Shown here: one piece after another, positions 2,732-31,852 of the stretch | Layout: the number at the start of each line of letters is the position of its first letter | Numbering within the stretch: the stretch's first letter is position 1 | NCBI GenBank assembly: GCA_020161975.1 | Contig: JAIUNP010000004.1 | Coordinates: forward strand, 1 to 35,239 | DNA: 35,239 bases | Reading direction: 5' to 3' | Source: Pseudomonadota bacterium | GTDB taxonomy: Bacteria > Pseudomonadota > Alphaproteobacteria > Rhizobiales > Beijerinckiaceae | Notes under the pieces: generated by a model | What the model was told of the DNA's origin: nothing | Database searches by the model: none | What the model saw: the letters and a program-made list of their open reading frames with translations, nothing else | Made by a program: the position numbers and the translations under genes

Positions 2732-3898
2732 CTACACCTGTTGTCTGGTCGCGCGCGCAATGACGACTTCCTCGTCGGTCGGAATGACGAGCACGTCGAC
2801 TTGCGATCTTGGAGAGCTGATCCTTGGGCCGCCCCTTTCATTGGCGACGAGATCGAGAACAACGCCAGCCCACGCGGATGGCTCGCAAATTCGACGGCGG
2901 ACGCCAGCAGAATGCTCGCCGATGCCGGCCGTAAACACGAGGACATCGAGGCCGCCGAGGACCGCGACGAGCGATCCCAGCTCGCGCGCGGCACGGTAGG
3001 CGAACAGATCAAGGGCCTCGGCGGCGCGGGGATCGTCGCTCGCCTCGAGTTTGCGCACGTCCGCGCTGATACCGGAGACGCCGAGCAAGCCGGACTTGTT
3101 GTAGAGCAGGCTCGAGACCTCGTCCGGCGACATGCGCTTGTGCTGCAAGAGGTGAAGCACAACTCCCGGATCGAGCGCGCCGGAGCGCGTGCCCATCATC
3201 AGGCCGTCGAGCGCGGTGAAGCCCATCGTGCTGGCGACGCTGCGGCGCTCTTTCAGCGCGCACATACTGGCGCCGTTGCCGAGGTGGGCTACGATCACGC
3301 GGCCGTCGGCTCGCGGTCCGACATGCTGCGGCAGGACGCCGGCAATGTACTCGTAGGACAGCCCGTGAAAGCCGTAGCGCAGCACGCCATCGTCGGTTAG
3401 CTCCTGCGGCAAGGCAAACAGCTGGGCAAGGCGCGGCTGCGTGCGATGGAATTGCGTATCAAAGCAGGCAACCTGGGGGAGCTGACTCCAAGCCTTGGCC
3501 ACCGCGCGGATGGTCGCAAGATTGTGCGGCTCATGCAGTGGCGCAAGGCTTACCAGGCTATCAAGCTCGCCCATCACCGCATCGTCGATGCAGACGGGGG
3601 CAACAAACCGAGCGCCGCCGTGCACGACGCGATGGCCGGCAGCGGAGATCGTGACGTCATCGAGCCGAGCACGTAGGGTTTCAAGCAACCAAGCCGTCAG
3701 AGTTTCGTGTGTGGCAGTCTCCGGAAGCGCCAGAGTTTCTGTGAGCCGCGCGGCCCTTGCCCCCTTCGCGACAAATCGCGGCGTGCCGCCAATGCCATCG
3801 ATTTGCCCACGGCAGAGCACGTCAAGGTGCTCGGCCCCGTAGAGGGCGAATTTGATGCTCGACGAGCCGGCATTGAGCACCAGGACGGCGCGGGTCAT
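2732..3898 (-). CDS. ackA: Acetate/butyrate-type kinase
   Basis: A 388-residue cytoplasmic kinase of the acetate kinase family that makes ATP from acyl phosphate, or the reverse. Family landmarks are present: N-terminal VLVLNAGSSSIKF, HRVVHGG with the substrate Arg, YGFHGLSY with the transition-state His, MGTRSGALDPGVV with the catalytic Arg, and IPTDEE with the C-terminal Glu. Length is close to the usual 400. The ATG overlaps the TGA of the MaoC-phosphotransacylase gene (ATGA), so the two are coupled and probably form a consecutive route acyl-CoA to acyl-P to acid plus ATP. Substrate length (acetate, propionate or butyrate) cannot be read from sequence. Confidence 0.95.
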   Translation of the reverse strand: MTRAVLVLNAGSSSIKFALYGAEHLDVLCRGQIDGIGGTPRFVAKGARAARLTETLALPETATHETLTAWLLETLRARLDDVTISAAGHRVVHGGARFVAPVCIDDAVMGELDSLVSLAPLHEPHNLATIRAVAKAWSQLPQVACFDTQFHRTQPRLAQLFALPQELTDDGVLRYGFHGLSYEYIAGVLPQHVGPRADGRVIVAHLGNGASMCALKERRSVASTMGFTALDGLMMGTRSGALDPGVVLHLLQHKRMSPDEVSSLLYNKSGLLGVSGISADVRKLEASDDPRAAEALDLFAYRAARELGSLVAVLGGLDVLVFTAGIGEHSAGVRRRICEPSAWAGVVLDLVANERGGPRISSPRSQVDVLVIPTDEEVVIARATRQQV

Positions 3899-5289
3899 GT
3901 CGCACCTCGCGCCTTATGATGAACAACGAGCAGCGCCAACGCGCAGGAAGCTTGCCGCGCCAATGCACCGTCGGCACGGCTGGTCAGCATAATCGGCACG
4001 CGTGCGCCCATGACGATGCCCGTCGCGTCGGCGCCGGCAAGATAGATCAGCTGCTTGGCGACCATGTTGCCGGCCTCCAGATCCGGCGCGACCAGGATGT
4101 CGGCGTCGCCGGCGACAGAAGAGAAGATGCCCTTGGTCTTGGCTGCTTCCTTCGAGACGGCGTTGTCGAAGGCGAGCGGACCGTCGAGCAGGCCGCCGGT
4201 GATCTGTCCGCGATCGGCCATCTTGCACAGAGCGGCAGCTTCCACTGTCGATGCAATCTTGGGATAGACGGTCTCGACAGCGGAGAGGATGGCAACCTTG
4301 GGCTCGGCCAAGCCGAGCGCATGTGCGAGATCGATGGCGTTCTGCACGATGTCGCGCTTGGTCTCGAGATCGGGGTAGATGTTGATCGCGGCATCCGTGA
4401 TCAGCAAAGGCTTGGGGTAGTGCGGCACGTCGAGCGCGAAGACGTGGCTCATGCGCCGCTCGGTCCTGAGGCCGGTGTCGGCCTTGACCACCGCGCCCAT
4501 CAACTCGTCTGTGTGCAGCGCGCCCTTCATCAACGCCTCGACGCGGCTCTCGCGGGCGAGCTCGACGGCGCGTATAGCGGCAGCGTGGCTGTGGGGCGTA
4601 TCGATGATCTCGATGTCCTTCAGGCTGCGGCTGGCCGCATCGGCGGCCCTGCGGATCTTTGCTTGCGGGCCGACCAAGACCGGGACGATCAGTCGGTCGG
4701 CGGCCGCATCGAGTGCGCCGGCAAGCGACACCTCGTCGCACGGATGGACGACTGCCGTTCGGATCGCCGGCTGCTTCTGCGCTGCCTCGATCAACTGGCG
4801 GTATCGTGCCCCCCGCTCGTGCAGGTGGACCTCGGGAAGCAAGGCGCGTGGCCGACGCACCTTCTCCGTCGGAGCGACCACCAGGGCCTCGCCTTTGATG
4901 ACTGTCTCACCAGCCTGGTTTGTGCACGCACAATCGAGTACGACCCGCTTCTTGTCGGGGATCTTCTCGCGCACCGTGAGTCGGACCGTGACGGTGTCGC
5001 CCAGGCCAACCGGCCGCCGGAAGCTCAGCGACTGGTCGAGGTAGATCGTGCCGGGGCCGGGAAGCTCGGTGCCCAAAACGGCTGAGATCAGCGCGCCGCC
5101 CCACATGCCATGGGCGATCACTTTGTGGAAAGGATCAGACTTCGCAAACTCCTCATCGACGTGTGCCGGATTAACGTCGCCCGACATGACCGCGAACAGC
5201 TCGATGTCCTGCTTCCGTAGCGTTCGCGTGATCTCAGCCGTGTCACCGACCTTCAACTCGTCGAATATCTTGTTTTCTATGAACTGCAT
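3895..5289 (-). CDS. MaoC-like hydratase fused to phosphate acetyl/butyryltransferase
   Basis: A 464-residue bifunctional protein. Residues 1 to about 150 form a MaoC hot-dog domain with the hydratase signature DVNPAHVDEEFA and AHGM (catalytic Asp and His). Residues about 165-464 form a phosphate acyltransferase domain (PTA/PTB family) with ADILVAPDLEAGNMVAKQL and GARVPIMLTSRAD. The hydratase should interconvert enoyl-CoA and (R)-3-hydroxyacyl-CoA, the PhaC substrate; the transferase should make acyl phosphate for the adjacent kinase. ATG 5289 was chosen because GGAGAAG precedes it; the frame stays open 68 codons further upstream, but that part is Cys/Arg-rich and unlike the family. This fusion is known in Proteobacteria; the coupling of activities is inferred. 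Confidence 0.92.
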   Translation of the reverse strand: MQFIENKIFDELKVGDTAEITRTLRKQDIELFAVMSGDVNPAHVDEEFAKSDPFHKVIAHGMWGGALISAVLGTELPGPGTIYLDQSLSFRRPVGLGDTVTVRLTVREKIPDKKRVVLDCACTNQAGETVIKGEALVVAPTEKVRRPRALLPEVHLHERGARYRQLIEAAQKQPAIRTAVVHPCDEVSLAGALDAAADRLIVPVLVGPQAKIRRAADAASRSLKDIEIIDTPHSHAAAIRAVELARESRVEALMKGALHTDELMGAVVKADTGLRTERRMSHVFALDVPHYPKPLLITDAAINIYPDLETKRDIVQNAIDLAHALGLAEPKVAILSAVETVYPKIASTVEAAALCKMADRGQITGGLLDGPLAFDNAVSKEAAKTKGIFSSVAGDADILVAPDLEAGNMVAKQLIYLAGADATGIVMGARVPIMLTSRADGALARQASCALALLVVHHKARGAT

Positions 5290-5344: not shown

Positions 5345-5812
5345 TCACTTGGGTGCCTCCTTATTGTGAGTTCGGGAGAGCAGGGATTGCAGGCTGGACA
5401 GTGCCGCCACCGCGAGAGATGCGTTGCTTCCAATCCGGCTGAAACGTCCACCAACTGATGCGATGCCTTCGACAAGGCTGCTCGTATCGGCACTCAGGGC
5501 GTCCAGTGCCACAGCTTCTGCCTCCGACAGCGCCTCGAGCTCGGCTGAAGCAGGCTCTTGCAATGTGAAGGCCAGTGCAATCGCTCCCGCGACCAAGTGC
5601 ACAGCAGCGACGCCAAGCACCGCGCCGATGTCGCCGAGCGGGTTTCGCAGTGCAAGAAAGAGCGCGACATTGAGAAGCGCCACGCCGACAAGTAAGAGCA
5701 GAACCGCCAGTGTTCCGATTACGATGCGGCTTGCCGCGTAGCGGAACATGATCCGCTGGCGCAATACAGCAAGTCGGGCATAGAGGTGAGCATTCGTCGA
5801 AAGGCTGGACAT
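5345..5812 (-). CDS. YqjE/DUF1469-like (phage-holin superfamily) membrane protein
   Basis: A 155-residue inner-membrane protein with two long hydrophobic spans at about residues 30-55 and 62-85. They are followed by a soluble helical tail rich in Ala/Ser/Glu (SAELEALSEAEAVALDALSA). This matches the YqjE/DUF1469 group, often annotated as phage holin although such genes are chromosomal stress genes. The ATG at 5812 shares a base with the upstream stop (TGATG) and has GGAG ten bases before it inside the upstream gene. Its partner upstream is a DUF883-like protein; in enterobacteria yqjD and yqjE occur together in the same way. The actual function is unknown. Confidence 0.65.
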   Translation of the reverse strand: MSSLSTNAHLYARLAVLRQRIMFRYAASRIVIGTLAVLLLLVGVALLNVALFLALRNPLGDIGAVLGVAAVHLVAGAIALAFTLQEPASAELEALSEAEAVALDALSADTSSLVEGIASVGGRFSRIGSNASLAVAALSSLQSLLSRTHNKEAPK

Positions 5813-6087
5813 CACTCGCGCGCTCCTATGGCCAGCCCTAAGAGGAGCCCGAGTCCAAACGTTGCCAGAGCCGTCAATCTCGGATTCTTCTCGACGCCTT
5901 CGACCGCATCCGCGATGATGGCATCGACGCTGTGCAACAGCGACAGTGCGTCGGACTCCGCACCGGGCTTATAGTCTGGAGACGCTTGTGGGCCCGACGC
6001 AGAGGCCTGTCGATCATCAGGCGCGCTCCTTGGCTTGGCAGCCTCAAGGTCGCCGCGCAATTCAGCGATATCATTGAGCAACGACAT
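5812..6087 (-). CDS. DUF883/ElaB-YqjD-like small tail-anchored protein
   Basis: A 91-residue protein with a charged helical N-terminus (MSLLNDIAELRGDLEA), a polar linker, a second helix (LLHSVDAIIADAVEGVEKNP) and a single C-terminal membrane span rich in Gly/Leu ending LAIGARE. This layout resembles ElaB/YqjD/DUF883 proteins, tail-anchored and in E. coli reported to bind ribosomes in stationary phase. ATG 6087 fits the helical start; an in-frame ATG at 6153 would add 22 residues without family character. It is coupled to the following YqjE-like gene. Ribosome binding here is only an inference from the resemblance. Confidence 0.6.
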   Translation of the reverse strand: MSLLNDIAELRGDLEAAKPRSAPDDRQASASGPQASPDYKPGAESDALSLLHSVDAIIADAVEGVEKNPRLTALATFGLGLLLGLAIGARE

Positions 6088-6136
6088 GATGCTTCCACAC
6101 TCCGTGGTGAACGAAGAAGGCTGCGGCATCGCGGCT

Positions 6137-6394
6137 CTATTCCGATGAACCATTTCGCTCCTCTATGGATTCGGCGAGAGCTTCGAGATCGCGAAACGCC
6201 TCTGCGCCGCCCTTGTCGTCCACGACACGAGCCACAGTCTTCTCGTTGATCTTCAGATCCCCGTCGCCCCACGGCGTGGTGTCGATCTCGAGCCGATCCT
6301 CACCATCCTTGGCGGTGAAGCGCTGCACGGTCGCGCCCTTGCCGGCGGGGAGCGATACGTCGGCATCCCAGTCGATCTTGTGCTTCTTCGTCAT
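6137..6394 (-). CDS. Conserved-looking 85-residue hypothetical protein
   Basis: A small acidic cytoplasmic protein starting MTKKHKIDWDADVSLPAGKG, with no membrane span and no Cys. It alternates charged and hydrophobic residues (VQRFTAKDGEDRLEIDTTPW), suggesting a short beta-rich domain, and ends in an acidic helix (FRDLEALAESIEERNGSSE). ATG 6394 has AGGAGC just upstream. The gene lies in the leftward operon between fabI-like and the DUF883-like gene, with a 94-base gap before it. I do not recognise the family. Its place suggests an accessory role in the storage/fermentation operon, perhaps on granules, but nothing in the sequence proves this. Confidence 0.5.
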   Translation of the reverse strand: MTKKHKIDWDADVSLPAGKGATVQRFTAKDGEDRLEIDTTPWGDGDLKINEKTVARVVDDKGGAEAFRDLEALAESIEERNGSSE

Positions 6395-6488: not shown

Positions 6489-7265
6489 TCACGACATGAC
6501 GTGATAGCCGGCGTCGACGTAGGCGATGTTGCCGGTCACGTTCGGCGCGTAGTCACTGACGAGGCCTGCGGCCATGGCGCCAACGTCGGCGATCGACACC
6601 AGGCGCCGCTCGGGCGCTCGGGCGCGTGCCTCGTCGATCAAGGCGTCGAAGTGGTCGATACCGGAAGCAGCGCGTGTCTTCAGTGGTCCCGGCGAAAGCG
6701 CATTGACACGGATGCCTTTCGGCCCGAGCTCGGCGGCGAGGTAGCGCACCGTTCCTTCGAGCGCCGACTTGACCGGCCCCATGATGTTGTAGTGGTCGAC
6801 GACCTTCTCGGCGCCATAGTAGCTGACCGTCAGCAGGCAGCCGCCATTAGGCATGAGCGGCTCGGCCAACCGGGCCATGCGGATGAAGGAGTGTACGGAG
6901 ACATCCATGGCGCGCGCGAAGCCGGGACGCGAGCAGTCGCTGACCCGGCCATGCAGGTCTTCTTTCGGGCAGAAGGCAATCGAATGCAGCAGAAAGTCGA
7001 GCCGGCCCCATTTCTCTTTGACCGCACCAAACACGCCTTCGAGAGAGCCGTCGGTCTCGACATCGAGCGGCAGGAGGAGACGCGCATCGACAGCGGCGGC
7101 TACCGGAGCGACATGAGGCTTGGCCTTGTCGTTGAGAAAGGTCAGTGCGAGCTCGGCACCCGCTGCGCGGAACGCTCTGGCGCATCCGGCAGCGATCGAT
7201 TGGTCGTTCGCGACGCCGACGACCAAGCCAACCTTGCCGGACAGTAGTTCGAGTGCAGTCGTCAT
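6489..7265 (-). CDS. fabI: FabI-type enoyl-ACP/CoA reductase
   Basis: A 258-residue SDR-fold reductase of the FabI class that reduces trans-2-enoyl thioesters with NAD(P)H. FabI landmarks: GLVVGVANDQSIAAGCA at the nucleotide site, LLHSIAF, then VSYYGAEKVVDHYNIMGPVK with the Tyr-X6-Lys catalytic pair, and a C-terminal TGNIAYVDAGYHVM. It starts 3 bp after the phaC stop, and its ribosome-binding site (AGGAG) lies inside the last phaC codons. This is probably a second, non-housekeeping FabI, because it sits in a PHA/acetate-kinase operon rather than with fatty acid genes. It may supply reduced acyl chains or dispose of NADH; this role is inferred. Confidence 0.88.
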   Translation of the reverse strand: MTTALELLSGKVGLVVGVANDQSIAAGCARAFRAAGAELALTFLNDKAKPHVAPVAAAVDARLLLPLDVETDGSLEGVFGAVKEKWGRLDFLLHSIAFCPKEDLHGRVSDCSRPGFARAMDVSVHSFIRMARLAEPLMPNGGCLLTVSYYGAEKVVDHYNIMGPVKSALEGTVRYLAAELGPKGIRVNALSPGPLKTRAASGIDHFDALIDEARARAPERRLVSIADVGAMAAGLVSDYAPNVTGNIAYVDAGYHVMS

Positions 7266-7268: not shown

Positions 7269-9197
7269 CTACTCCTGCAGAACATAGGTCCCGGGCGCTT
7301 CGCCGATCGGCGCGTAGCCTGCTTTCAGCGACCCGAGCGCCGGAGGCCGGGCCGGCTTGCCTGAGTGTGACGCGAGCCACGCTACCCATTCCGGCCACCA
7401 CGACCCGTCCTTGCGCGGCGCAGATGCTGCCCAAGCCTCTGGATCGGTGTATCGGTCGACGCTCGACTTGGTCATGACCTGAAAGTTTCGGCCATTCCGT
7501 CCGGGCTCGGACACGATGCCGGCGTTATGGCCGCCGTTCGTCAGCACGAACGTGACATCGGTGTCGGTGAGCAGGTGGATCTTGTAGGCCGACCGCCAAG
7601 GCGCCACGTGGTCTCGGGTCGTGCCGACCGCGAAGATCGGTGCGCGAATGTCGGTCAGCGCAATGGCTTTACCATCGACCTGATAGCGGCCTTCGGCCAG
7701 ATCATTGTCGAGGAACAGGCGGCGCAGGTACTCTGAATGCATGCGATAGGGCATGCGTGTGGCGTCAGCATTCCACGCCATCAGGTCGATCATCGGCTCG
7801 CGCTCGCCGCCCATATACTCGCGGATCATGCGCGACCAGATGAGGTCGTTGGACCGCAGGAGCTGGAACGTGCCAGCCATTTGCTTGGTGTCGAGAAAGC
7901 CCTGCTCCCACATCATGTCCTCGAGGAACGTCAGCTGGCTGTCGTTGATGAACAGCATCAGCTCGCCGGCCTCGGTGAAGTCGGTCTGGGCGGCAAACAG
8001 CGTCATCGACCTGATGCGGTCGTCGCCATCACGGGCCATCGCCGCCACAGCGATCGACAGGAGGGTGCCGCCGAGACAATAGCCCGCGGCATGCACCGAC
8101 TGATCAGGGGCAACCGCGCTGACCGCGTCGAGCGCGGCCATGACGCCTAGCTTGCGGTAGTCCTCCATGCCGAGGTCGCGGTCCTCGGGATCGGGGTTTT
8201 TCCAGGAGATCATGAACACCGTGAAGCCCTGATCGGTCAGGTATTTCACCAGCGAGTTCTGCGGCGACAGGTCGAGGATGTAGTACTTCATGATCCAGGC
8301 TGGAACGATCAGCACCGGCTCGGGGCGGACCTCGTTGGTAGTGGGCGCGTACTGGATCAACTCGATCAGCCGGTTGCGGAAGATCACCTTGCCCGGCGTC
8401 ACGGCAAGATTGCGCCCCACCTGGAATGCTTCGGCGCCGACCGGCTTCTTGCCCGACACGGCGCGTTGCCAGTCCTCGACGAAATTCTGTGCCCCGCGCA
8501 CGAGATTCATGCCGCCCTGCTGCATCGTGTGCTGCAGGAGCTCCGGATTCGTCAGCAGGAAGTTCGATGGAGAGACCATGTCGAGAAGCTGCCTGGATGC
8601 GAACTCGACGACATTCTCGTGCTGTCTTGTAACTCCGCGCACGCCGGTCGTGGCGTTGTGCCACCACTGCTGCTGCAACAGGAAGCTCTGATACATGAAG
8701 CTGTAGGGCCAGCGCTGCCAGGCTTCGCCGACGAAGCGCCTGTCCTGCGGCAGCGGCGCGATGCAGGCGTCGGAGGCACCACCCTTAAGGGCGCACTGGC
8801 CCACATGATGCGCCAAACGCGTGCTCTTGCGCATCGACTTCTCGATCAGCTGCATTTGCTTTCCTGGCGAGCCGGCCAGGTGCGTGGCCCAATCCAGGTA
8901 CGCTGCGGCCAGCGCCGCAGGGGACAGGCCCGCCGTAAAGCGCGCGAGGGCCGCGTGCAACGAGCGGTCGACGATGTCAGAGAAGGCAGTCGCTGCGTAA
9001 GAATCCCGTTCGGGCGGGGGTGGCGGACGAAAGGCGGCGGCGGGAACCCTGGGTTCCGGCCGGACTTTCCTGGTTGAGACTGCGCTATCGCCGACTGAGG
9101 TATTCATTTGGCGCGCTGCCTTCCCGTTGCCAGCCGGGATCGGTGTTGGAGGCACCACCTCGGACACGCCGGTCTGCCCCTGCTCGCGCGCTGCCAT
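7269..9197 (-). CDS. phaC: Class I poly(3-hydroxyalkanoate) synthase
   Basis: A 642-residue polymerase that makes PHA from (R)-3-hydroxyacyl-CoA on cytoplasmic granules. The alpha/beta-hydrolase core carries the lipase-like box GYCLGG (nucleophile Cys about 374), Asp about 529 (TTRDHVAPW) and His about 557 (NGGHNAGIVSEPG). An N-terminal PhaC_N domain precedes them (VGRNLAVTPGKVIFRN). It exceeds the usual 560-600 residues because of about 60 Pro/Ala-rich leading residues. ATG 9197 follows GGAG by seven bases; a GTG one codon upstream is possible. It is the first gene of the leftward operon, facing an FNR/FixK-type palindrome 60 bp upstream. No phaA, phaB or phasin gene is in the window. Confidence 0.95.
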   Translation of the reverse strand: MAAREQGQTGVSEVVPPTPIPAGNGKAARQMNTSVGDSAVSTRKVRPEPRVPAAAFRPPPPPERDSYAATAFSDIVDRSLHAALARFTAGLSPAALAAAYLDWATHLAGSPGKQMQLIEKSMRKSTRLAHHVGQCALKGGASDACIAPLPQDRRFVGEAWQRWPYSFMYQSFLLQQQWWHNATTGVRGVTRQHENVVEFASRQLLDMVSPSNFLLTNPELLQHTMQQGGMNLVRGAQNFVEDWQRAVSGKKPVGAEAFQVGRNLAVTPGKVIFRNRLIELIQYAPTTNEVRPEPVLIVPAWIMKYYILDLSPQNSLVKYLTDQGFTVFMISWKNPDPEDRDLGMEDYRKLGVMAALDAVSAVAPDQSVHAAGYCLGGTLLSIAVAAMARDGDDRIRSMTLFAAQTDFTEAGELMLFINDSQLTFLEDMMWEQGFLDTKQMAGTFQLLRSNDLIWSRMIREYMGGEREPMIDLMAWNADATRMPYRMHSEYLRRLFLDNDLAEGRYQVDGKAIALTDIRAPIFAVGTTRDHVAPWRSAYKIHLLTDTDVTFVLTNGGHNAGIVSEPGRNGRNFQVMTKSSVDRYTDPEAWAASAPRKDGSWWPEWVAWLASHSGKPARPPALGSLKAGYAPIGEAPGTYVLQE

Positions 9198-9352
9198 CAC
9201 TGTTCTCCAATCGACGTTTGATGCTCTGCACCATAGGCGGCTGTTGCGGTGCAGCGATTGACGTACGTCAAGGCTCTGAATGCGCTAAACACCTAAGTTT
9301 CGTTGCATGTGGCGCCACACAATTGCGCTCGCACTTTCCCAAAGAGGTCCCC
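9198..9352. promoter_or_regulatory. Divergent promoter region with FNR/FixK-type box at 9258-9271
   Basis: The 155 bp between phaC and the HlyD-family gene contain a perfect palindrome TTGACGTACGTCAA (9258-9271, centre 9264.5), matching the FNR/FixK core TTGA-N6-TCAA. On the leftward side TATGGT (plus-strand 9232-9237) is centred 30 bp from the palindrome centre. That is the spacing of a class II FNR promoter (box at -41.5, -10 at about -11.5), putting the phaC start near 9223. On the rightward side the corresponding place holds only a weak TAAGTT (9294-9299). The match to the FNR/FixK consensus comes from known regulon logic; which regulator binds is unknown. Confidence 0.65.
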
Positions 9353-10342
9353 ATGCAGGTCAGTCGAAATGCGGTGTTCTCGGTAGCACTGGTCGCGCTG
9401 GTCGGGGGAGTTGCCGGATTCGTGACCTGGAAGGAGAGTGCGCGGAGCGCGTTGCCGCCCGGCATCTTCAGCGCCAACGGCCGGGTCGAGGCCAATCAGG
9501 TCGACATCGCAACCAAACTCGCTGGCCGCATCGTCGAGGTGATCCCGCGCGAGGGCGATATGGTCGAGGCCGGCGCTGTTGTTGCCCGGCTCGACAAGGA
9601 CCAGCTCGAAGCCCAGCTGCGTCAGGGTGAGGCCGAAGCCCAGCGGGCTCGGCAGGCTCTGGTGGCCGCAGAAGCCATGGTGGCTAGCCGACGGGCCGAG
9701 CTGACGTTTGCCGACCAGGAGGTGAAGCGATCGGCCGCGCTCGTCGACAAGGGCTACACCCCTCGCGAAAAGATGGATCAACGCCAGCAGCAGCTGGCAT
9801 CGGCCGAAGCAGCGCTCAATGCCGCAATCGCCCAGGTCGACCAGGCGAAGGCCACCGTCAAAGCTGCCGATGCACAAGTCGAGCAGATCAAGACCGTCCT
9901 GACTGATGCGACGGTCCGATCGCCGGTGCGGGGGCGCGTGCAGTATCGGCTGATCGAGCCGGGTGCGGTGCTCGCGGCCGGCGGACGCATCTTGTCGGTG
10001 CTCGACCTGTCTGACGTCCACATGACGATCTTTCTGCCGGCGCGTGAAGCTGGCCGCCTGACCGTTGGCGACGAGGCGCGAGTCGTGCTCGACGCTTATC
10101 CCCAGTATGTTTTCCCCGCGAACGTGTCGTTCGTTGCCGGAGAGGCGCAGTTCACGCCGAAGACGGTCGAGACGCGCGAGGAGCGCGAGAAGCTGATGTT
10201 CCGCATCAAGCTGCAAGCGCCACGTGAGATGGTGAAGGAGATCGAGGACCGGGTGAAAACTGGCCTGCGCGGCATGGCATACGTCCGTACAGACCGAGTT
10301 GCCGTCTGGCCGGTCAAGCTCGCACCGAAGCTTCCGTCATGA
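9353..10342 (+). CDS. HlyD-family periplasmic adaptor (YhiI-like)
   Basis: A 329-residue membrane fusion protein. One N-terminal anchor (about residues 7-25) is followed by a biotinyl-lipoyl-like half (VEANQVDIATKLAGRIVEV), a long coiled-coil hairpin (about 95-185, Ala/Gln/Glu-rich), then the second half-motif (VRSPVRGRVQYRLIEPG) and a beta-barrel domain. ATG 9353 has AGAGG before it; the frame is open further upstream, but that part overlaps phaC and the promoter region. Its end overlaps the next gene by 4 bp. The order adaptor, double-ATPase ABC protein, ABC-2 permease is that of E. coli yhiI-rbbA-yhhJ, so it probably joins the inner-membrane exporter to the cell envelope. Substrate unknown. 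Confidence 0.9.
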   Translation: MQVSRNAVFSVALVALVGGVAGFVTWKESARSALPPGIFSANGRVEANQVDIATKLAGRIVEVIPREGDMVEAGAVVARLDKDQLEAQLRQGEAEAQRARQALVAAEAMVASRRAELTFADQEVKRSAALVDKGYTPREKMDQRQQQLASAEAALNAAIAQVDQAKATVKAADAQVEQIKTVLTDATVRSPVRGRVQYRLIEPGAVLAAGGRILSVLDLSDVHMTIFLPAREAGRLTVGDEARVVLDAYPQYVFPANVSFVAGEAQFTPKTVETREEREKLMFRIKLQAPREMVKEIEDRVKTGLRGMAYVRTDRVAVWPVKLAPKLPS

Positions 10343-13113
10343 ACGAGATGATCGCGCCCCGCAGGCTTGCCCAAGCGGCAGGCGTGGCGGCATCGCTTGA
10401 GGCCGTGTCGCACCGCTACGGCAAGAGCATCGCGCTCGATGACGTCTCGATCACCATTCCGGCGGGCTGCATGGCCGGCCTGATCGGGCCCGACGGCGTC
10501 GGCAAGTCCACCCTGCTCGCGCTGATCGCCGGCGTGCGGCGCATCCAGACCGGTGCCGTGCGCGCGCTCGACGGCGACATGCACAGTGCCGCGCACCGCC
10601 AGCAGTGCTACGCCCGCATCGCCTACATGCCGCAGGGCCTGGGCCGCAATCTCTATCCGACGCTCAGCGTGTTCGAGAACCTCGATTTTATCGGGCGGCT
10701 GTTCGGCCAAGGCCAGGCCGAGCGCAAGGCGCGCATCGGCGATCTCTTGAGAAGCACCGGGCTCGACCCGTTTCCGGACCGACCTGCCGGCAAGCTTTCC
10801 GGCGGCATGAAGCAGAAGCTGTCGCTTTGCGGAGCGCTGATCCATGACCCCGATCTGCTCATTCTCGACGAGCCGACCACGGGTGTCGATCCGCTGTCGC
10901 GGCGCCAGTTCTGGGAGCTGATCGATCGCATCCGCGCACGCCGGCCGCAGATGAGCGTGGTGGTCGCGACCGCCTACATGGAGGAGGCGGAGCGCTATGA
11001 CTGGCTGGCAGCCATGGACGCCGGCCGCATCATCGCCACCGGCACACCGGCCGAGCTGAAGGCGCGAACGAACGCGAGGGATCTGGAGCAGGCGTTCGTT
11101 TCGCTTCTGCCGGAGCCCAAGCGGCAGGCGCACCGCGGCGTGCAGATTCCGATGCGTATCCCGCAGTCCGGCCCGCCGGCGATCGAGGCCAATGGGCTGA
11201 CCATGCGGTTCGGCGACTTCGTTGCAGTCGACCACGTGAGCTTCCGCATCGAGAAGGGGGAGATCTTCGGGTTCCTCGGCTCCAACGGCTGCGGCAAGTC
11301 CACGACCATGAAGATGTTGACGGGCCTGCTGCCGGCATCTGAGGGCAAAGCGTCACTGCTGGGGCAGCCGATTGATGCCCAGAACATCGAGACGCGGCGC
11401 CGGGTCGGATACATGTCGCAGTCGTTCTCGCTCTACCGAGAGCTGACGGTACGGCAGAACCTGCAGCTGCACGCGCGCTTGTTTGATCTTCCCGAACCTG
11501 AGCAGGGACCGCGCGTAGTGGAGATGCTGCAGAGGTTCGGGCTCGATCAGGCTGCCGACAGCAACCCGGAGAGCCTGCCGCTGGGCATGCGTCAGCGGCT
11601 GCAGCTCGCAGTCGCTGTGTTGCACAAGCCGGAGATGCTGATCCTCGACGAGCCGACGTCCGGGGTCGATCCGGTGGCTCGCGATCAGTTCTGGCAGTAT
11701 CTGGTTGATCTCTCGCGCAACGAGGGCGTGACGATCTTTCTGTCCACGCATTTCATGAACGAGGCGGAGCGCTGCGATCGGATCTCCCTGATGCACGCCG
11801 GCAAGGTGCTGGCGGCGGACACGCCGAAGGCATTGACCGAGGCTCGCGCCGCCAAGTCCCTCGAGGCGGCATTCATTGCCTACCTCGAGGACGCCTCTGG
11901 CGTGGGAGCCAAGAGCAAGGCAGACGAGCGGATCGAGGCGCGACCGGAGCCGCCGCCGCGCGCATCGCGGGCGATGTCTGCTTCCCGCTTCGATTTCGGC
12001 CGGCTGTGGGCCTATGCGCGGCGCGAAAGCGTCGAGATCTGGCGCGACCTGCTGCGGCTCGCGTTCGCCCTGCTGGGTCCGATCATTCTGATGATCACGT
12101 TCGGCTACGGCATCTCGTTCGACGTCGAGCATCTGCGTTACGCGGCCCTCGACCAGGACCAGACTGTCGAAAGCCGGCAGCTGCTCGAAAGCTTCGAAGG
12201 ATCGCGCTATTTCAGCCGGCGCCCTGATATCGTCGAGCCTAGCCAGATCGAGAGACGTCTCAGGAGTGGCGACTTGAAGCTCGCCGTGGAAATCCCTTCC
12301 GGGTTCGGACGTGATCTGCTCAACAATCGCATCCCAGAGGTCGGCATCTGGCTCGATGGCGCGATGCCGTTCAGGGCGGAGACTGCGAGGGGCTACGTCA
12401 GCGGACTGGCCCTCAGCTACCTGGCCGATCAGGCCGCGCGCCGCACCGGCTCGTCAACGTCGGCCTTGCCGATAGGGATCGAAACTCGCTTCAAGTACAA
12501 TCAAGCGTTCAAGAGCGTGTTTGCCATCGTGCCAAGCGTCATCATGCTCATGTTGGTGCTCATTCCGGCGATGCTGACCGCAGTCGGCGTCGTGCGCGAG
12601 AAGGAGACCGGCTCGATCGCTAATTTCCGCTCGACTCCGGTGACGAGCCTCGAGTTCCTGGTCGGCAAGCAGATACCCTACGTGGTAATCGCGCTGGTGA
12701 GTTTTTTGACCTTGTTGGCACTGTCGCTGTTTCTGTTTGGCGTGCCGGTCAAAGGGTCCGTCGTGGCATTGCTGACCGGTGTCATCCTCTACGTCCTGGC
12801 GTCGACCGGGTTCGGCCTCGTCATATCGACGTTCACGCGAACGCAGGTTGGGGCGATCTTCGCCACTGCCGTCATCGCGATGATCCCCGCCGTCAACTTT
12901 TCAGGCCTGCTCGTACCGGTCTCCTCGCTGTCCGGCGCAGGTCGCTTTCTTGGCTTGGCTTTCCCGGCAGCGTGGTTCCAGCAGATCAGCGTCGGCACTT
13001 TCACCAAGAGTCTCGGGTTCGCAGAGCTGTGGATCAACCACTTGGCGCTCGCGGTTTTTGCGGTTGTCTTCATCGGCGCGGCCGCGGTCGTGCTCAGAAA
13101 GCAGGAGGCGTGA
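10339..13113 (+). CDS. RbbA-like ABC protein: two ATPase domains fused to ABC-2 permease
   Basis: A 924-residue protein. NBD1 (about 18-250) has Walker A GPDGVGKST, signature LSGGMKQ and Walker B LLILDEPTTGVDP, but its H-loop reads ATAYMEEAE, with Tyr in place of His. NBD2 (about 282-515) has GSNGCGKST, an altered signature LPLGMRQ, a normal Walker B and a normal H-loop STHFMNEAE. A linker leads into an ABC-2 permease half (about 555-924) with one leading and five or six later membrane spans. This is the RbbA/YhiH layout. It works with the upstream HlyD-type protein and the downstream permease as an export complex. RbbA was described as ribosome-associated in E. coli; a transporter role fits this gene set better. 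Start overlaps the preceding gene (ATGA). Confidence 0.9.
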   Translation: MNEMIAPRRLAQAAGVAASLEAVSHRYGKSIALDDVSITIPAGCMAGLIGPDGVGKSTLLALIAGVRRIQTGAVRALDGDMHSAAHRQQCYARIAYMPQGLGRNLYPTLSVFENLDFIGRLFGQGQAERKARIGDLLRSTGLDPFPDRPAGKLSGGMKQKLSLCGALIHDPDLLILDEPTTGVDPLSRRQFWELIDRIRARRPQMSVVVATAYMEEAERYDWLAAMDAGRIIATGTPAELKARTNARDLEQAFVSLLPEPKRQAHRGVQIPMRIPQSGPPAIEANGLTMRFGDFVAVDHVSFRIEKGEIFGFLGSNGCGKSTTMKMLTGLLPASEGKASLLGQPIDAQNIETRRRVGYMSQSFSLYRELTVRQNLQLHARLFDLPEPEQGPRVVEMLQRFGLDQAADSNPESLPLGMRQRLQLAVAVLHKPEMLILDEPTSGVDPVARDQFWQYLVDLSRNEGVTIFLSTHFMNEAERCDRISLMHAGKVLAADTPKALTEARAAKSLEAAFIAYLEDASGVGAKSKADERIEARPEPPPRASRAMSASRFDFGRLWAYARRESVEIWRDLLRLAFALLGPIILMITFGYGISFDVEHLRYAALDQDQTVESRQLLESFEGSRYFSRRPDIVEPSQIERRLRSGDLKLAVEIPSGFGRDLLNNRIPEVGIWLDGAMPFRAETARGYVSGLALSYLADQAARRTGSSTSALPIGIETRFKYNQAFKSVFAIVPSVIMLMLVLIPAMLTAVGVVREKETGSIANFRSTPVTSLEFLVGKQIPYVVIALVSFLTLLALSLFLFGVPVKGSVVALLTGVILYVLASTGFGLVISTFTRTQVGAIFATAVIAMIPAVNFSGLLVPVSSLSGAGRFLGLAFPAAWFQQISVGTFTKSLGFAELWINHLALAVFAVVFIGAAAVVLRKQEA

Positions 13114-13114: not shown

Positions 13115-14242
13115 ATGAGGAAGCGCCTGACCAATGTGCTGTCGCTGGGCGTCAAGGAGTTGCGCAGCGTGCGCGCCGATCCGGTGCTCGTCCTGCTCGT
13201 GCTCTACACCTTCACCTTCGCCGTTTATGCGGTGGCAACCGGCGCCAAGCTCGAGGTCGAGCATGCGTCGGTCGCGATCGTCGATGAGGACCGCTCGGAG
13301 CTGTCAGGACGTATCAAGGCAGCAATCCTCGAGCCGTTCTTCAAGCCAGCCCAGGAGATTGGCGCTTCGGAGATCGACCGGGCGATGGACCTGAATCGAT
13401 ACACATTCGTGATCGAGGTTCCTCCGAAATTCGAGGCCGACCTGCTCGCAGGCCGCAAGCCCTCGGTGCAGATCAACGTCGACGCGACGGCGATGGCGCA
13501 GGCCGGCAATGGGGCGGTCTACCTGCAAAACATCGTCAGCCAGGAGGTGCTGAGCTACGCACAGCGGGCTGAGGGGACGAGCAAGCTCCCGATCAATCTC
13601 GTCGTGCGATCCAAGTTCAATCCCAATCTCGCATCGCATTGGTTTACCGCCGTCATGCAGGTGATCAACAACATCACCATCCTGTCGGTGATCCTCACCG
13701 GCGCCGCGCTGATCCGCGAGCGCGAGCACGGCACGGTCGAGCATCTGCTGGTGATGCCGGTAACTCCTGTCGACATCATGCTCGCCAAGATCTGGGCGAA
13801 TGGCCTGGTCATCCTGGTCGCGGCGCTGGTCTCGCTCAATGTTGTAGTCGAGCTGCTGTTGAAAGTGCCGGTCGCGGGGTCGCTGGCGTTATTCCTTGCC
13901 GGCGCCGTGATCTATCAGTTCTCGGTGACGGCCCTTGGTATCTTGATCGCCACCTTCACGACCTCGATGCCGCAGTTCGGTCTCCTGGCAATGCCGATCC
14001 TGGTCGTCATGAATCTACTGTCGGGATCGACGACGCCGATGGAGAGCATGCCGCTATGGTTGCAGAACGTGATGCAGCTCTCGCCGTCGACACATTTCGT
14101 CAGCTTCGCCCAGGCGATCCTCTATCGCGGCGCAGACCTTTCGATCGTGTGGCCGCAGCTGCTGGCCATGACTGCGATCGGTGCGGCGTTCTTCGGTGTG
14201 TCGCTCATGCGCTTCCGCAATGCAATCGCTGCCGCCCAATAG
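13115..14242 (+). CDS. ABC-2 type permease (YhhJ-like)
   Basis: A 375-residue inner-membrane permease. The first membrane span is at about residues 22-42, then a periplasmic domain of about 130 residues (VEHASVAIVDEDRSELSG), then five spans with the ABC-2 pattern (ALIREREHGTVEHLLVMPVT, typical of YhhJ/YbhS-type proteins). It starts one base after the stop of the RbbA-like gene and is the third gene of the exporter operon. It probably pairs with the permease half of the RbbA-like protein to form the channel. ATG 13115 fits the family start; the frame is open further upstream only as a shadow of the previous gene. Substrate unknown. Confidence 0.9.
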   Translation: MRKRLTNVLSLGVKELRSVRADPVLVLLVLYTFTFAVYAVATGAKLEVEHASVAIVDEDRSELSGRIKAAILEPFFKPAQEIGASEIDRAMDLNRYTFVIEVPPKFEADLLAGRKPSVQINVDATAMAQAGNGAVYLQNIVSQEVLSYAQRAEGTSKLPINLVVRSKFNPNLASHWFTAVMQVINNITILSVILTGAALIREREHGTVEHLLVMPVTPVDIMLAKIWANGLVILVAALVSLNVVVELLLKVPVAGSLALFLAGAVIYQFSVTALGILIATFTTSMPQFGLLAMPILVVMNLLSGSTTPMESMPLWLQNVMQLSPSTHFVSFAQAILYRGADLSIVWPQLLAMTAIGAAFFGVSLMRFRNAIAAAQ

Positions 14243-15166: not shown

Positions 15167-15216
15167 TCTGGCTCTGTCTAGACTGCCTGCTTTTGGACGA
15201 AGCGGGCGGGACGGGA

Positions 15217-16725
15217 ATGAAGGGCGTGGATACGATTGCACGTGTTCGGCGGGAGTATTTCGTTCGTCGCCGGACGATCAAGGACATCTGTCGCGAGCTT
15301 CACGTCTCGCGCAACACGGTGCGCAAGATCATCCGCTCGCAGGCGACGGCGTTTGAGTATGAGCGCGAGACGCAGCCATTGCCCAAGCTGGGGCCATGGC
15401 GCGAGGATCTCGACCGGCTGCTGCTGGCGAATGAAGGCAAAGCGTCGCGCGATCGTCTGACCCTTGTGCGGCTGTTTGAGGATCTGTGCGGCTTCGGCTA
15501 TGCGGGCAGTTACGACGCGGTGCGCCGCTACGCCCAAACTTGGCGCAAGGCGCGCGGCGCCGCGACGGCCACGGCTTACGTACCCCTCTCGTTTGCGCCG
15601 GGCGAGGCCTACCAGTTCGACTGGAGCCACGAGATCGTGCTGATCGACGGCGTGACGATGACGGTCAAGGTCGCGCACATGCGGCTTTGCCACAGCCGGA
15701 TGATGTTTGTACGGGCTTATCCGCGCGAGACGCAGGAGATGGTGTTCGACGCCCACACCCGCGCCTTCGCCTTCTTCAAGGGGGCCTGCGCGCGCGGCAT
15801 CTACGACAACATGAAGACGGCGGTCGAGGCGATTTTTGTCGGCAAGGAGCGCCGCTACAATCGCCGCTTCCTGCAGATGTGCAGCCATTATCTCGTTGAT
15901 CCGACCGCCTGCACGCCGGCCGCAGGCTGGGAGAAGGGTCAGGTGGAGAACCAGGTCGGATTGGTGCGCGAGCGGTTCTTCACGCCGCGCCTGCGGTTTA
16001 AAAGCCTTGAAGAGTTGAACGCCTGGCTGCTCGACAAGTGCGTCGCCTACGCCAAGGCCCATACCCACCCTGAGCTCGCCGGCCAGACAATCTGGCAGGT
16101 GTTCGAGGAGGAGCGGGCGAAGCTTGTGCCAGTCGCCCATACCTTCGACGGCTTCCACGCCGTGGCCGCCTCGGTCTCCAAGACCTGTCTGGTGCGCTTC
16201 GACAACAACAAATACTCGGTTGAGGCGCGCGCCGTCGGCCGACCAGTCGAGGTTCACGCTTACGCCGACCGCATCGTCATTCGCCAGGACGGCGCGATTG
16301 TCGGCGAACACGCCCGCCGCTTCGGTCGCGGCGAGACGGCTTATGATCCCTGGCATTACGTGCCGGTGCTGGCCCGCAAGCCGGGAGCCTGGAGGAACGG
16401 CGCCCCGTTCCGCGACTGGGTGCTGCCGGCGGCGCTGGAGGGCGTGCGGCGCAAGCTCAAAGGCGCCCTTGATGGCGACCATCAGATGGTCAGCATCCTC
16501 GCCGCCGTTCTTACCGACGGGCTGAGCGCGGTCGAGGCGGCCTGCACCGAGGCGCTCGACCATGGCGTCCATTCCGCCGACGTCATCCTCAACATTCTGG
16601 CCCGGCGCCGTGATCCGCCGCCGGCGCTCACCATCCTCACCCCGGACGCATTGACGCTGCGGCACATGCCGCTTGCCGATTGCGCCCGCTATGACAGCCT
16701 CCGATCTGGGAGACGATCCGCATGA
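15217..16725 (+). CDS. istA: IS21-family transposase IstA
   Basis: A 502-residue transposase. An N-terminal helix-turn-helix ([20 protein letters not shown], about 20-42) precedes an rve-type integrase core with Asp about 135 (YQFDWSHE), Asp about 197 ([10 protein letters not shown]) and Glu about 244 (KGQVENQV). The C-terminal part is the beta-barrel region with [20 protein letters not shown] 15217 is the likely start; an in-frame TTG at 15193 is possible. The reading frame is intact. The end overlaps istB by 4 bp (ATGA), as usual for coupled IstA/IstB synthesis. Confidence 0.96.
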
Positions 16726-17465
16726 CCGCACCGCTCATCGACCGCAGCCGCCTGTTTGACCTGATGGGCGAACTCAAGCTCTATGGCATGCGCGGCGCCT
16801 ACGACGAGGTCATGGCCCACGCCCTCAAGCGTCAGCATGAACCGCCGCGCATTCTTGGCGACTTGCTTGGAGCCGAGATTGCCGAGAAGCAGGCCCGCTC
16901 GATCAAATACCAACTGGCCATCGCCAAATTGCCGCTGGCCAAGGACCTCGCAGACTTCGACTTTGCCGGCACGCCGATCAACGAAGGGCTGGCGCGCGAT
17001 CTGGCCGGCGGCGCCTTCATCACCGATCAACGCAACGTCGTCATTGTCGGCGGCACGGGAACCGGCAAGACCCATCTGGCCATCGCCATCGCCCGCGCTG
17101 TCATCCGCAATGGCGCGCGCGGGCGCTTCTTCAATGTTGTCGATCTTGTCAATAAGCTTGAGGCCGAACTGCGCCAGGGCCGCCAGGGCCGCATCGCCGA
17201 CTACCTTGGCCGGCTCGACTTCGTCGTGCTCGACGAACTCGGCTATCTGCCCTTCGCCCAGGCAGGCGGCCAGTTGCTGTTCCACCTGATCAGCCGCCTC
17301 TACGAGCGCACCTCGATCATCCTTACCACCAATCTCGCCTTCGGCGAATGGCCGGGCGTCTTTGGCGACGCCAAGATGACCACGGCCTTGCTCGACCGCC
17401 TGACCCATCATTGCGACATCGTCGAAACCGGCAACGACAGCTGGCGCTTCAAGCACCGCGCCTGA
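16722..17465 (+). CDS. istB: IS21-family helper ATPase IstB
   Basis: A 247-residue AAA+ ATPase of the IstB/DnaC type that assists IstA at the target. Walker A is [15 protein letters not shown] (about 108-122) and Walker [13 protein letters not shown]; an Arg-containing sensor stretch follows ([14 protein letters not shown]). Length and N-terminal helical domain are normal. It is translationally coupled to istA. Both genes are intact, so the element is probably still able to move. Confidence 0.96.
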
Positions 17466-20846: not shown

Positions 20847-21656
20847 GTGGCCGGGGGGACGAAAGCTCCGGTCGCCCTCATCTCCGGGGGCTCCAGCGGT
20901 ATTGGTCTTGAGGTCGCGCGCCTGTTGCGCCAGCGCGGCTTTGATCTTCACATCGCAGCACGTGACACAGCGCGGCTTGAAAGCGCCCGTGCCGACCTGC
21001 TCGCCGCGCCTGGTGGTCGGATCGAGGTGCATCCGCTGGATGTCGCGGATTCGTCAGCCTGTGAAGCTCTTGTGACAGCTCTTCTCGCCCGCGAAGGCAG
21101 GATCGACTGGTTGGTCACCAGCGCGGGCATGGTCGAGCCGGGTATGTTTCTCGATCAGCCGCCAGAGGTTTTCCAGCGGCACATGCAGATCAATTATTTC
21201 GGCACGCTCAACCTCGTCTCCCCCGTCTCGAAGGCGATGGCAGCGGCTGGCACCGGGCGTATCGTGCTCATCTCGTCGGCGGCGGCCTTCACGGGCATCG
21301 TGGGCTATGCGGCTTATTGCCCCTCGAAGGCCGCCGTGAAAGCGCTGGGGGAGGCGCTTTATGCCGAGCTGGGTGCGCATGGCATTTCTGTCAGTGTGGC
21401 CTTCCCGCCCGACACGGATACGCCACAGTTGGCCGCAGAACAGGCGAATAAGCCGGAGGTCACAAAGCAGATTACCGCCGGGGGGGGCGTTCTCTCTGCA
21501 GGTCAGGTCGCCCAAGCGATTGTCGAAGGGGCGGGATCTGGTCGGCTCGTCGTAGCGCCGGGACTGTTGATGCAACTATTTTCTTGGGTGTACAGCCTCT
21601 ACGCGCCTTTCTTCCTGCGATTGCAGGGGCGCATTCTCAAGAAAACAACGATCTGA
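20847..21656 (+). CDS. Short-chain reductase resembling 3-ketodihydrosphingosine reductase (KDSR/RkpH-like)
   Basis: A 269-residue SDR starting with GTG. The nucleotide motif is SGGSSGIG (about 13-20), NYFG and SSAAAF carry the catalytic Ser about 144, and YCPSK gives Tyr about 157 and Lys about 161. The stretch SVAFPPDTDTPQLAAEQ is distinctive: the PPDTDTP pattern is typical of eukaryotic KDSR/TSC10 reductases, which reduce 3-ketosphinganine. A hydrophobic C-terminal segment (about 235-258), also seen in that family, suggests membrane association. Rhizobial capsule loci contain a comparable SDR, RkpH. With the alpha-oxoamine synthase at the right edge this gives the first two steps of sphingoid-like lipid synthesis; the substrate is inferred. 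Confidence 0.78.
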   Translation: MAGGTKAPVALISGGSSGIGLEVARLLRQRGFDLHIAARDTARLESARADLLAAPGGRIEVHPLDVADSSACEALVTALLAREGRIDWLVTSAGMVEPGMFLDQPPEVFQRHMQINYFGTLNLVSPVSKAMAAAGTGRIVLISSAAAFTGIVGYAAYCPSKAAVKALGEALYAELGAHGISVSVAFPPDTDTPQLAAEQANKPEVTKQITAGGGVLSAGQVAQAIVEGAGSGRLVVAPGLLMQLFSWVYSLYAPFFLRLQGRILKKTTI

Positions 21657-21690
21657 AGCGCTCTGTAAAAGCTGAAGTCAAACGCTCTAG

Positions 21691-22884
21691 TTACGGCGAA
21701 GCGTTGTTCAACAGGCCCAAGAGTGCTCGCCGATAAACATCGATGTTTCTTTGGAATGGCGAAAATTCTGTCATATTGATTGCAGAAGTGTTGGCTGGCG
21801 AAGTCAGTTGCGCGGCCAGATGCCTGTCATCGCCGGGCACGAAAAATTCGATCTTCTCAGGGTAATAGTGGCTGAAACCTTCAAAGGCTTTGATCCGTGA
21901 GGCTACGATCCGCTTTCCGAGTTCAAGAGCAAGACTGATCGGACCCGACGAGGAAAGGCCCACCTCACGGTAGGGCATCACTACAGCATCGCAAATCGCG
22001 ATCGCGTTCAGAAACTGCTCGTCGGGAAGAGTGCCGCAGAAGTGAACACGGGAGGGTATTGCGCGGGCTTCTTCAATCAGCATGTCCCGATAACGGGTAT
22101 CAGTTTGGGTGGGGGCAAGATCGCCAAAAATGGCGAGATGATGTTCAGGCCCGAGATGCTTCAAGGCACGAATGGCGACCTCGAAGCCCTTGTAGGGCGC
22201 CATGAAGCCGAAAACACCGTAGAGTTTCGCTTCTGTTGGTAGATGAGCAATGGCCGCAAACTGCGACCGATTGGAGCGGATCTTGGCGGCTTCGACGTCA
22301 CCAGGTGACAGATACGCGAGAGGATGGTCAAAGACGTCGGACAGACCATACTCATGGACCAGCCTGTCACGGTCACCGACGTTATGAGTAATGAAGCAAA
22401 TGGGTTTTTTCTGCTGTAGATTTCGTAAATAGCGACCGTATAAATGTTTACCCAATCTTGAATAGTTGATCGCCCTGTAAATTGAGCGACCGATGCCTTC
22501 AAAATCGCCTTTGAATGCCTGCCGGGCGTCATCCAGCAGGTTGATATGTGGTTTTGGGGTAAGCCAATGCAGGGTCAGGCAGAGTGCAGGCGCAGCGCCG
22601 AAAAGAATTTTAAGACGGCGCAAGATCTGCGATGTCTCCACGCCATAGAGACCATGCTCAACATGTATGTTGACCATATCAAACTCGGCCAAACGTGATG
22701 CGATGCCACGAATATGATTGTCGCCTTCGATGATGTCTGCGCCGGTTGGGCTTGAGAGCAGATCCACATCAAGCGGAAGGACTTCGACATCAGCAAAACT
22801 GTGAAATTGCGGTACGAGACGCGACACATAGTTCGCAATCCCGCAAAGCCGATCATAGCTGCTGATAACGGCCAGGCGTGGCAT
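21691..22884 (-). CDS. Glycosyltransferase, family 4-like (capsule)
   Basis: A 397-residue cytoplasmic or membrane-associated GT-B glycosyltransferase. The N-terminus PRLAVISSYDRLCGIANYVS has the donor-loop GIANY pattern. The C-terminal half has LYGVFGFMAPYKGFEVAIRA, a P-loop-like AIFGD segment, CDAVVMPYREVGLSSSGPIS and a late FEGFSHYYPE. ATG 22884 has AAGGA upstream and aligns with the start of the paralogue at 24188-25486; an upstream in-frame ATG at 22923 is unlikely. It lies alone, after the terminator of the gmd operon, and converges on the reductase gene with a 34-bp gap. It probably adds a sugar to the capsule repeat unit; donor and linkage unknown. Confidence 0.82.
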   Translation of the reverse strand: MPRLAVISSYDRLCGIANYVSRLVPQFHSFADVEVLPLDVDLLSSPTGADIIEGDNHIRGIASRLAEFDMVNIHVEHGLYGVETSQILRRLKILFGAAPALCLTLHWLTPKPHINLLDDARQAFKGDFEGIGRSIYRAINYSRLGKHLYGRYLRNLQQKKPICFITHNVGDRDRLVHEYGLSDVFDHPLAYLSPGDVEAAKIRSNRSQFAAIAHLPTEAKLYGVFGFMAPYKGFEVAIRALKHLGPEHHLAIFGDLAPTQTDTRYRDMLIEEARAIPSRVHFCGTLPDEQFLNAIAICDAVVMPYREVGLSSSGPISLALELGKRIVASRIKAFEGFSHYYPEKIEFFVPGDDRHLAAQLTSPANTSAINMTEFSPFQRNIDVYRRALLGLLNNASP

Positions 22885-23002
22885 GAAGTATCCTTCGGGC
22901 GGCTTGCTGGTGTGAAAATACAATCACGACGATAATGGACGCGATGAATGCATACCCTCGGTAGTGCGTTGGAGAGCCATGCATATCCCTCCAGATTTGG
23001 GC

Positions 23003-23040
23003 AAAAAAACGCGCTCGTCCAAAAGCAGGGAGCGAGCGCG
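23003..23040 (-). terminator. Rho-independent terminator after gmd (leftward)
   Basis: On the minus strand CGCGCTCG pairs with CGAGCGCG around a 15-base loop and is followed by seven T residues. It lies 49 bases beyond the gmd stop and separates the leftward glycosyltransferase-gmd operon from the next leftward glycosyltransferase gene. Confidence 0.88.
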
Positions 23041-23088
23041 CTGGAAGTGTTTAGTGAGGCTGTGTGTTATCACTGTCTCAAAAAAATA

Positions 23089-24165
23089 TTACAGGAAATC
23101 TTCGAGGATAACCTTGCCGTCCTGAATGCGCTTCTGTCGCTCGATATCGCGATTGACCATGTCGTGGACCAGCTGGGTGAAGCCGGTCTGGTGACGCCAG
23201 CCGAGAACCTGCTGGGCCTTGGAAGGATCCCCAACCAGCAATTCCACCTCAGCCGGACGGAAATACGCCGGATCCACCTGAACAAGCACTTCGCCGGTTG
23301 CTGAGTCGCGACCGATTTCATCCACACCTGTACCGGACCATTCGACCTTGCGGCCGATGCAACCGAAGGCGGCATCACAGAAATCACGCACGGAGTGCAT
23401 CTCGCCCGTGGCCAGAACATAATCGTCGGGCTTGTCCTGCTGCAGCATCAAATACATGCCATAGACATAGTCACGCGCATCGCCCCAGTCGCGCTTGGCA
23501 TCGAGATTACCCAGCCGGAGCGGTGCGGTCGAACCGAGCGCAATGCCTGCCACCGTCTTGGCAATCTTGCGCGTTACAAAAAGCTCGCCGCGCATGGAGC
23601 CTTCGTGGTTGAACAAGATGCCGTTGGATGCGTGCATGCCGTAGGACTCACGGTAATTCACGGTAATCCAATAGCCATAAAGCTTCGCGACGCCATAGGG
23701 GCTGCGCGGATAGAACGGCGTCGTCTCGCGCTGCGGGATTTCCTGGACCTTACCGTAAAGCTCCGACGTCGAGGCCTGATAAAACCGGCATGTCTCCGTC
23801 AGGCCCGCAAAACGGATAGCCTCGAGCAGGCGAAGGGTGCCGATACCATCGGCGTTGGCTGTATACTCCGGGGCTTCGAAGCTGACAGCCACATGGCTCT
23901 GCGCCGCAAGGTTGTAGATCTCGTCCGGCCGCGTCTGTGCAACGATGCGGTTGAGCGACGGAAAGTCCGTCAAATCACCATAGTGAAGCTTCAGGTTCTC
24001 CACAGGCGCCCCGCCCGCCATGAAAGCGCAGAGACGGTGCACGTTCGGCGCTGAAGACCTGCGAACGATACCATGCACTTCATAGCCCTTGTCGAGCAGA
24101 AGGCGGCAAAGATGAGTGCCATCCTGGCCGGTAATCCCGGTGATAAGTGCAACTTTCTTGGGCAT
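23089..24165 (-). CDS. gmd: GDP-mannose 4,6-dehydratase
   Basis: A 358-residue extended SDR that makes GDP-4-keto-6-deoxy-mannose. Motifs: nucleotide site [30 protein letters not shown], the HYGDLTD stretch, [14 protein letters not shown] (catalytic Ser/Thr and Glu), and [10 protein letters not shown] with Tyr-X3-Lys. The usual NHESPRRGETFVTRKI segment is [16 protein letters not shown] here, so the loop before the conserved Arg-Gly-Glu is altered. Length is normal. It follows the second glycosyltransferase gene after 22 bp and ends at a strong terminator. With the epimerase-like gene at 25632 it should supply a 6-deoxyhexose for the capsule. ATG 24165 suits the family start. Confidence 0.93.
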
Positions 24166-24187
24166 GGGTTTTCTTTCGGATTGCAAG

Positions 24188-25486: not shown

Positions 25487-25631
25487 TGGAACTGCACCGT
25501 GCTTGACGATCTTATTGCGTGCGGTTAGCACTTTCATTGTCCAAATGTCAATCTTTGTGGGTGCCACGGGTTGCCGCCAGCGCCGTGGATGAACCCGGTG
25601 TCAGTTTCCTGTCTCAAAAGTCGGATGAACT
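25487..25631. promoter_or_regulatory. Divergent intergenic region between glycosyltransferase-gmd and epimerase genes
   Basis: The 145 bp between two divergent starts must carry both promoters. A short inverted pair, CCACGG and CCGTGG, flanks GTTGCCGCCAGCG. No consensus promoter or known operator was recognised. Confidence 0.4.
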
Positions 25632-26555: not shown

Positions 26556-26585
26556 GTTGAGGGGCGGTTAGCTGTCGGAAAAGAC

Positions 26586-27842: not shown

Positions 27843-27855
27843 AAGGTCTATCTGT

Positions 27856-31732: not shown

Positions 31733-31784
31733 CTCGACTGGGTTCCGGACGACGACGAACCGGACGCGCGCCTTCTAGATAACG

Positions 31785-31816
31785 AAAAAAGAAGGCGACA
31801 TGAACATGTCGCCTTC
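31785..31816 (-). terminator. Rho-independent terminator of the RTX protease gene (leftward)
   Basis: On the minus strand GAAGGCGACATG and CATGTCGCCTTC form a perfect 12-bp stem with a two-base loop, followed by TTTTTT. It lies 36 bases after the protease stop and 52 bases before the kpsM start, separating the two leftward transcription units. Confidence 0.92.
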
Positions 31817-31852
31817 ATGATTATTGCCAAGCGAGAGAGATTTTTCCGGTGC

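Follow-up and report, generated by a model that had tools for sequence, protein, structure and literature searches.

In Rhodobacter sphaeroides, FnrL binds at the phbC-fabI operon RSP1257-4 and regulates it positively (Dufour et al. 2010, PMC2908626), and the RSP_1257-4 operon is also listed as repressed by MppG (PMC4263372). The HlyD protein RSP3160 and the ABC proteins RSP3159 and RSP3157 of the same organism belong to the predicted alphaproteobacterial FixK core regulon (PMC2908626, Table 1), and from their names we infer that these three correspond to hlyD-rbbA-yhhJ. Elsewhere, phaC2 of Bradyrhizobium diazoefficiens is a target of FixK2 (PMC10888616), and control of phbC by FnrN/FixK has been predicted in some Rhizobiales (PMC4999443). 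Bidirectional Fnr/Dnr sites have been proposed in Dinoroseobacter shibae, between nirS and nosR2 and likewise between hemA3 and dnrE (PMC5398030). No box common to phaC and rbbA was found described in PMC10888616 or PMC4999443, our literature search returned no paper linking RbbA with FnrL or Fnr, and we found no description of a box shared by phaC and hlyD-rbbA in the open-access literature searched. Such a shared box follows from known parts, and the type of control is already known in these bacteria.

The locus examined here resembles R. sphaeroides RSP1257-1254 in that phaC and fabI are the first two genes of an operon with an FNR-type site, which in R. sphaeroides reads TTGAGcaagATCAA (PMC2908626). 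That site is imperfect, having a TTGAG half, whereas the box found here is perfect and faces two operons. The HlyD/ABC genes of R. sphaeroides bear distant locus numbers (RSP3157-3160), whereas here they adjoin phaC (PMC2908626). Like the predicted FixK core regulon (PMC2908626), our locus has an FNR/FixK-type site at genes for HlyD and an ABC exporter, but that regulon is a prediction only, and no FixK was identified in our own 79%-complete genome. With B. diazoefficiens phaC2 (PMC10888616) and the phbC genes of Rhizobiales (PMC4999443) it has in common a PHA synthase that may be under a FixK-type regulator. The arrangement in D. shibae is similar in that one Crp/Fnr site is proposed for two divergent units, which are denitrification and heme genes in D. 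shibae but storage and export genes here (PMC5398030).

The window analyzed, a 35,239-nucleotide stretch of DNA corresponding to one contig (C150), comes from a metagenome-like assembly of 3.99 Mb in 465 contigs that is 79% complete with 4.9% contamination. Leftward, on the minus strand, lie phaC, encoding a PHA synthase (7269..9197; PhaC_N and PHBC_N over the Pfam cut-off), a fabI-type enoyl-ACP reductase gene (6489..7265; NF005717, 437 bits against 337), three small open frames called by coding score (5345..6394), a maoC/pta fusion encoding enoyl-CoA hydratase and phosphate acetyltransferase (3895..5289; NF006045, 772 bits against 282, with the start set by coding score), and ackA, encoding acetate/propionate kinase (2732..3898; PF00871 and TIGR00016 over cut-off). 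Two of the three small frames had no Pfam or NCBIfam family match. The phaC product scored 567 bits against TIGR01838, the class I PHA synthase model, whose cut-off is 623; by its sequence it is a PhaC-family protein without a class assignment, closest to the PhaCs of Rhizobiales/Hyphomicrobiales and other alphaproteobacterial genomes. Rightward, on the plus strand, are genes for a HlyD-type membrane fusion protein (hlyD, 9353..10342; HlyD_D23 and HlyD_3 over cut-off), the ABC ATPase/permease RbbA (rbbA, 10339..13113; NF033858, 1501 bits against the curated cut-off of 1050), and a YhhJ-like ABC-2 permease (13115..14242; ABC2_membrane_3, start by coding score). For hlyD we discarded a GTG start further upstream, at 9020, because the homologue alignments and the coding score both begin at about 9353. 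A second rbbA, 57% identical, was found elsewhere in the genome (C10:1025-3784).

Further along the window, the segment 14503-18629 holds a 219-residue frame whose match to an MFS transporter is limited to the N-terminal half, then an IS21-type istA/istB pair (15193-17465) and a histidine-kinase fragment with a receiver domain, a layout that we read as an insertion, a rearrangement, or a join made at the IS element during assembly. From 21000 to 34000 the G+C content drops from about 0.63 to 0.51-0.59, which suggests acquired DNA; this region encodes an RTX/serralysin-like metallopeptidase as well as a polysaccharide cluster with sugar epimerases, glycosyltransferases, and a TPR/ABC-2 protein.

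phaC starts with the ATG at 9197 (minus strand) and hlyD with the ATG at 9353, and the 155 bp that separate them contain TTGACGTACGTCAA at 9258..9271, a perfect 14-bp palindrome centered at 9264.5. Dimeric activators of the FNR/FixK/DNR specificity group within the Crp/Fnr family recognize TTGAY-N4-RTCAA. The sequence has no mismatch to TTGA-N6-TCAA, for which TTGAY-N4-RTCAA is the preferred form, and our check agrees with the first-pass annotation, which had reported a fully symmetric box of this pattern between the two operons. About 0.002 perfect TTGA-N6-TCAA sites would be expected in a gap of 155 bp. When one mismatch was allowed, 7 sites were found across the window compared with 9.6 expected, without enrichment, and the case for the box therefore rests on its position and conservation rather than on its mere presence. 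We disregarded the other perfect site in the window, at 28036-28049, which falls within a coding gene.

Across the 3.99 Mb of the genome we counted 47 perfect TTGA-N6-TCAA sites, compared with 15 of the reversed pattern. A simple coding-potential scan placed about 20 of those 47 between genes, a share far above the 12% of intergenic DNA assumed in calculating its p of 1e-7. Sites of the TTGAY-N4-RTCAA subset were intergenic more often (12/17) than the remaining sites (8/30; p 0.006). Further intergenic boxes lie upstream of the nap operon, ompW, ccmC, a gene for a ferredoxin, a Crp/Fnr gene, and a second phaC, and plausibly outline a low-oxygen/denitrification regulon. For the second phaC, a paralogue with 60% identity, the predicted start is preceded at about 58 bp by the perfect box TTGATCTCGATCAA (C309:7101-7114). 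On these grounds and its conservation upstream of phaC and hlyD orthologues, TTGACGTACGTCAA is very probably the binding site of an FNR-family regulator that senses low oxygen or nitric oxide.

We fetched 80 orthologous phaC loci and sought the pattern within 400 bp upstream. A perfect TTGA-N6-TCAA was present at 28 of the 80, compared with 0-2 loci for palindromes of the same composition and 8 for the best other of all 256 four-mers. Only the 6-bp spacing was enriched, other half-site spacings being found at 0-3 loci. In these boxes TTGAY/RTCAA is retained, with T/C and A/G as the usual bases next to the half-sites, but the six core bases differ from locus to locus; a varying core with kept half-sites is the signature of the FNR/FixK/DNR group and not of a long symmetric operator. 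Half-sites and spacing are thus conserved at both gene sets (28/80 phaC loci, and 9/28 hlyD-rbbA loci as described below), yet patchily so. Conservation is clearly patchy among relatives mostly of the same family or order, where the perfect box was found at 4 of 29 phaC loci, a set that includes distant PhaC paralogues, and the closest relative (75% PhaC identity) had no box at phaC.

The missing box in the closest relative, together with symmetry that spans all 14 bp, could point to some other dimeric regulator, for example of the TetR or GntR type, acting on the palindrome, or to a chance match. We consider this very improbable, since only TTGAY/RTCAA at 6-bp spacing is kept among orthologues and the spacing to the -10 element suits class II activation. 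The variability of the palindrome core among orthologues led us to reject a TetR/GntR-type operator.

The position of the box relative to the leftward promoter agrees with an FNR/FixK/DNR-type activator. The leftward -10 element, TATGGT (9230..9235, minus strand), is centered at 9232.5 and lies 32 bp from the center of the box, with a predicted transcription start near 9223. If the box is at -41.5 and the -10 element at -12 to -7, their centers must be 32 bp apart. The first-pass annotation had placed TATGGT exactly 30 bp from the box center and taken the spacing to fit a class II activated promoter; the figure is corrected by our measurement, and the correction strengthens the claim, since 32 bp is the class II spacing. 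Downstream of the orthologous phaC boxes the -10 score likewise peaked at 31-32 bp from the center (z 4.4; 0/5000 shuffles), which we take as independent confirmation of a predicted class II architecture. Footprinting across the orthologues, the co-occurrence described below, and the published FnrL binding strongly support the prediction that a site of the FNR/FixK/DNR type drives phaC at class II spacing, and the box probably activates the storage-polymer/acetate operon.

The rightward side is less clear. A possible -10 element, TAAGTT (9294..9299, plus strand; predicted start near 9306), also lies 32 bp from the box center. Only three of its positions agree with the -10 consensus, which bears out the earlier remark that the rightward element is the poorer of the two. 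We found hlyD-rbbA divergent from phaC at 12 of the 80 phaC loci, and nine of these 12 had a box between the genes, five perfect and four with one mismatch. In these nine loci there was no clear hlyD-side -10 element at 32 bp.

It may be, then, that the box serves the phaC operon only and that hlyD-rbbA just happens to lie beside it and uses a promoter of its own, as the weak rightward element, the nine divergent loci, and the many phaC loci that bear a box with no adjoining hlyD-rbbA would suggest. We regard this as rather unlikely in view of the exporter loci themselves. RbbA is encoded in 29 of 289 genomes of the class, and 28 alphaproteobacterial loci had both hlyD and upstream sequence. 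A perfect box lay within 400 bp upstream of hlyD-rbbA at nine of the 28, against 0-1 for palindromes of the same composition and 5 for the best other four-mer, and the -10 score was again highest at 31 bp. Since phaC was within reach at only three of all 28 loci, each of the three with a one-mismatch box, the hlyD-rbbA operon carries such sites on its own account. The predicted FixK regulon membership of the HlyD/ABC genes and the exact 32-bp position of TAAGTT also speak against a box confined to phaC. The same box and -10 spacing at hlyD-rbbA elsewhere, with the published FixK prediction, lend indirect support to the view that the box perhaps activates the exporter operon as well. The proposal that one regulator switches on both operons is accordingly upheld in part: the phaC site and the boxes at hlyD-rbbA elsewhere favor it, but the divergent loci provide no clear hlyD-side -10 element.

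The genome scan proposed in the first-pass annotation yielded the 47 motif sites and five Crp/Fnr-family proteins with an E-xx-SR (PE(S/N)xSR-like) recognition helix, all DNR/FtrB-like and lacking the FNR cysteines, but neither a canonical four-cysteine FNR nor a clear FixK in the 79%-complete genome; the signal could thus be O2 or NO. The relatives G015 and G032 encode candidate four-cysteine FNRs. On another contig (C461), a cbb3-oxidase ccoN over the family cut-off is located just downstream of an Rrf2-type regulator gene resembling nsrR, hinting at NO control of the cbb3 oxidase.

A NO-responsive DNR/FtrB-like protein, rather than an O2-sensing FNR or FixK, is a credible if less favored candidate for the regulator. 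All five proteins found are of that kind, one of their genes starts about 70 bp downstream of a box, and the nap operon has a box as well. Across 77 genomes, however, the phaC box followed FnrL/FixK-like proteins, called at 110 bits or more: 27 of the 47 genomes encoding one had the box, compared with 2 of the 30 others (Fisher p 4e-6, uncorrected for kinship). DNR/FtrB-like proteins did not track the box (15/29 genomes with it, 14/21 without), a weak comparison because the 50 of 77 genomes used were chosen by hand to include every box-bearing one. R. sphaeroides also employs FnrL at its phbC-fabI operon, and the incompleteness of our genome (79%) leaves room for a regulator of the FNR or FixK type.

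We propose that a dimeric Crp/Fnr-family activator of the FNR/FixK/DNR group binds the palindrome at about -41.5 and, in class II mode, would recruit RNA polymerase to the leftward promoter. The phaC-fabI-maoC/pta-ackA operon would thereby be switched on under low oxygen or NO, providing a polymer store for carbon and reducing power and generating ATP by way of acetyl phosphate. The symmetry and central position of the site would allow this one dimer to face the hlyD-rbbA-yhhJ promoter as well. We hold this model as a whole to be highly likely. The finding is genuine, and the first-pass annotation was mostly right.

Our analysis adds comparative evidence that the storage/acetate operon and the HlyD-RbbA exporter are members of one Crp/Fnr-type regulon, in some cases through a single shared site. 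We suggest only tentatively that, in several groups of alphaproteobacteria, a single low-oxygen/NO switch ties the RbbA exporter to polymer storage and acetate metabolism, in which case the RbbA substrate would be made, or be harmful, in oxygen-limited metabolism. The poorly understood RbbA exporter would gain a physiological context, that of oxygen limitation or NO.
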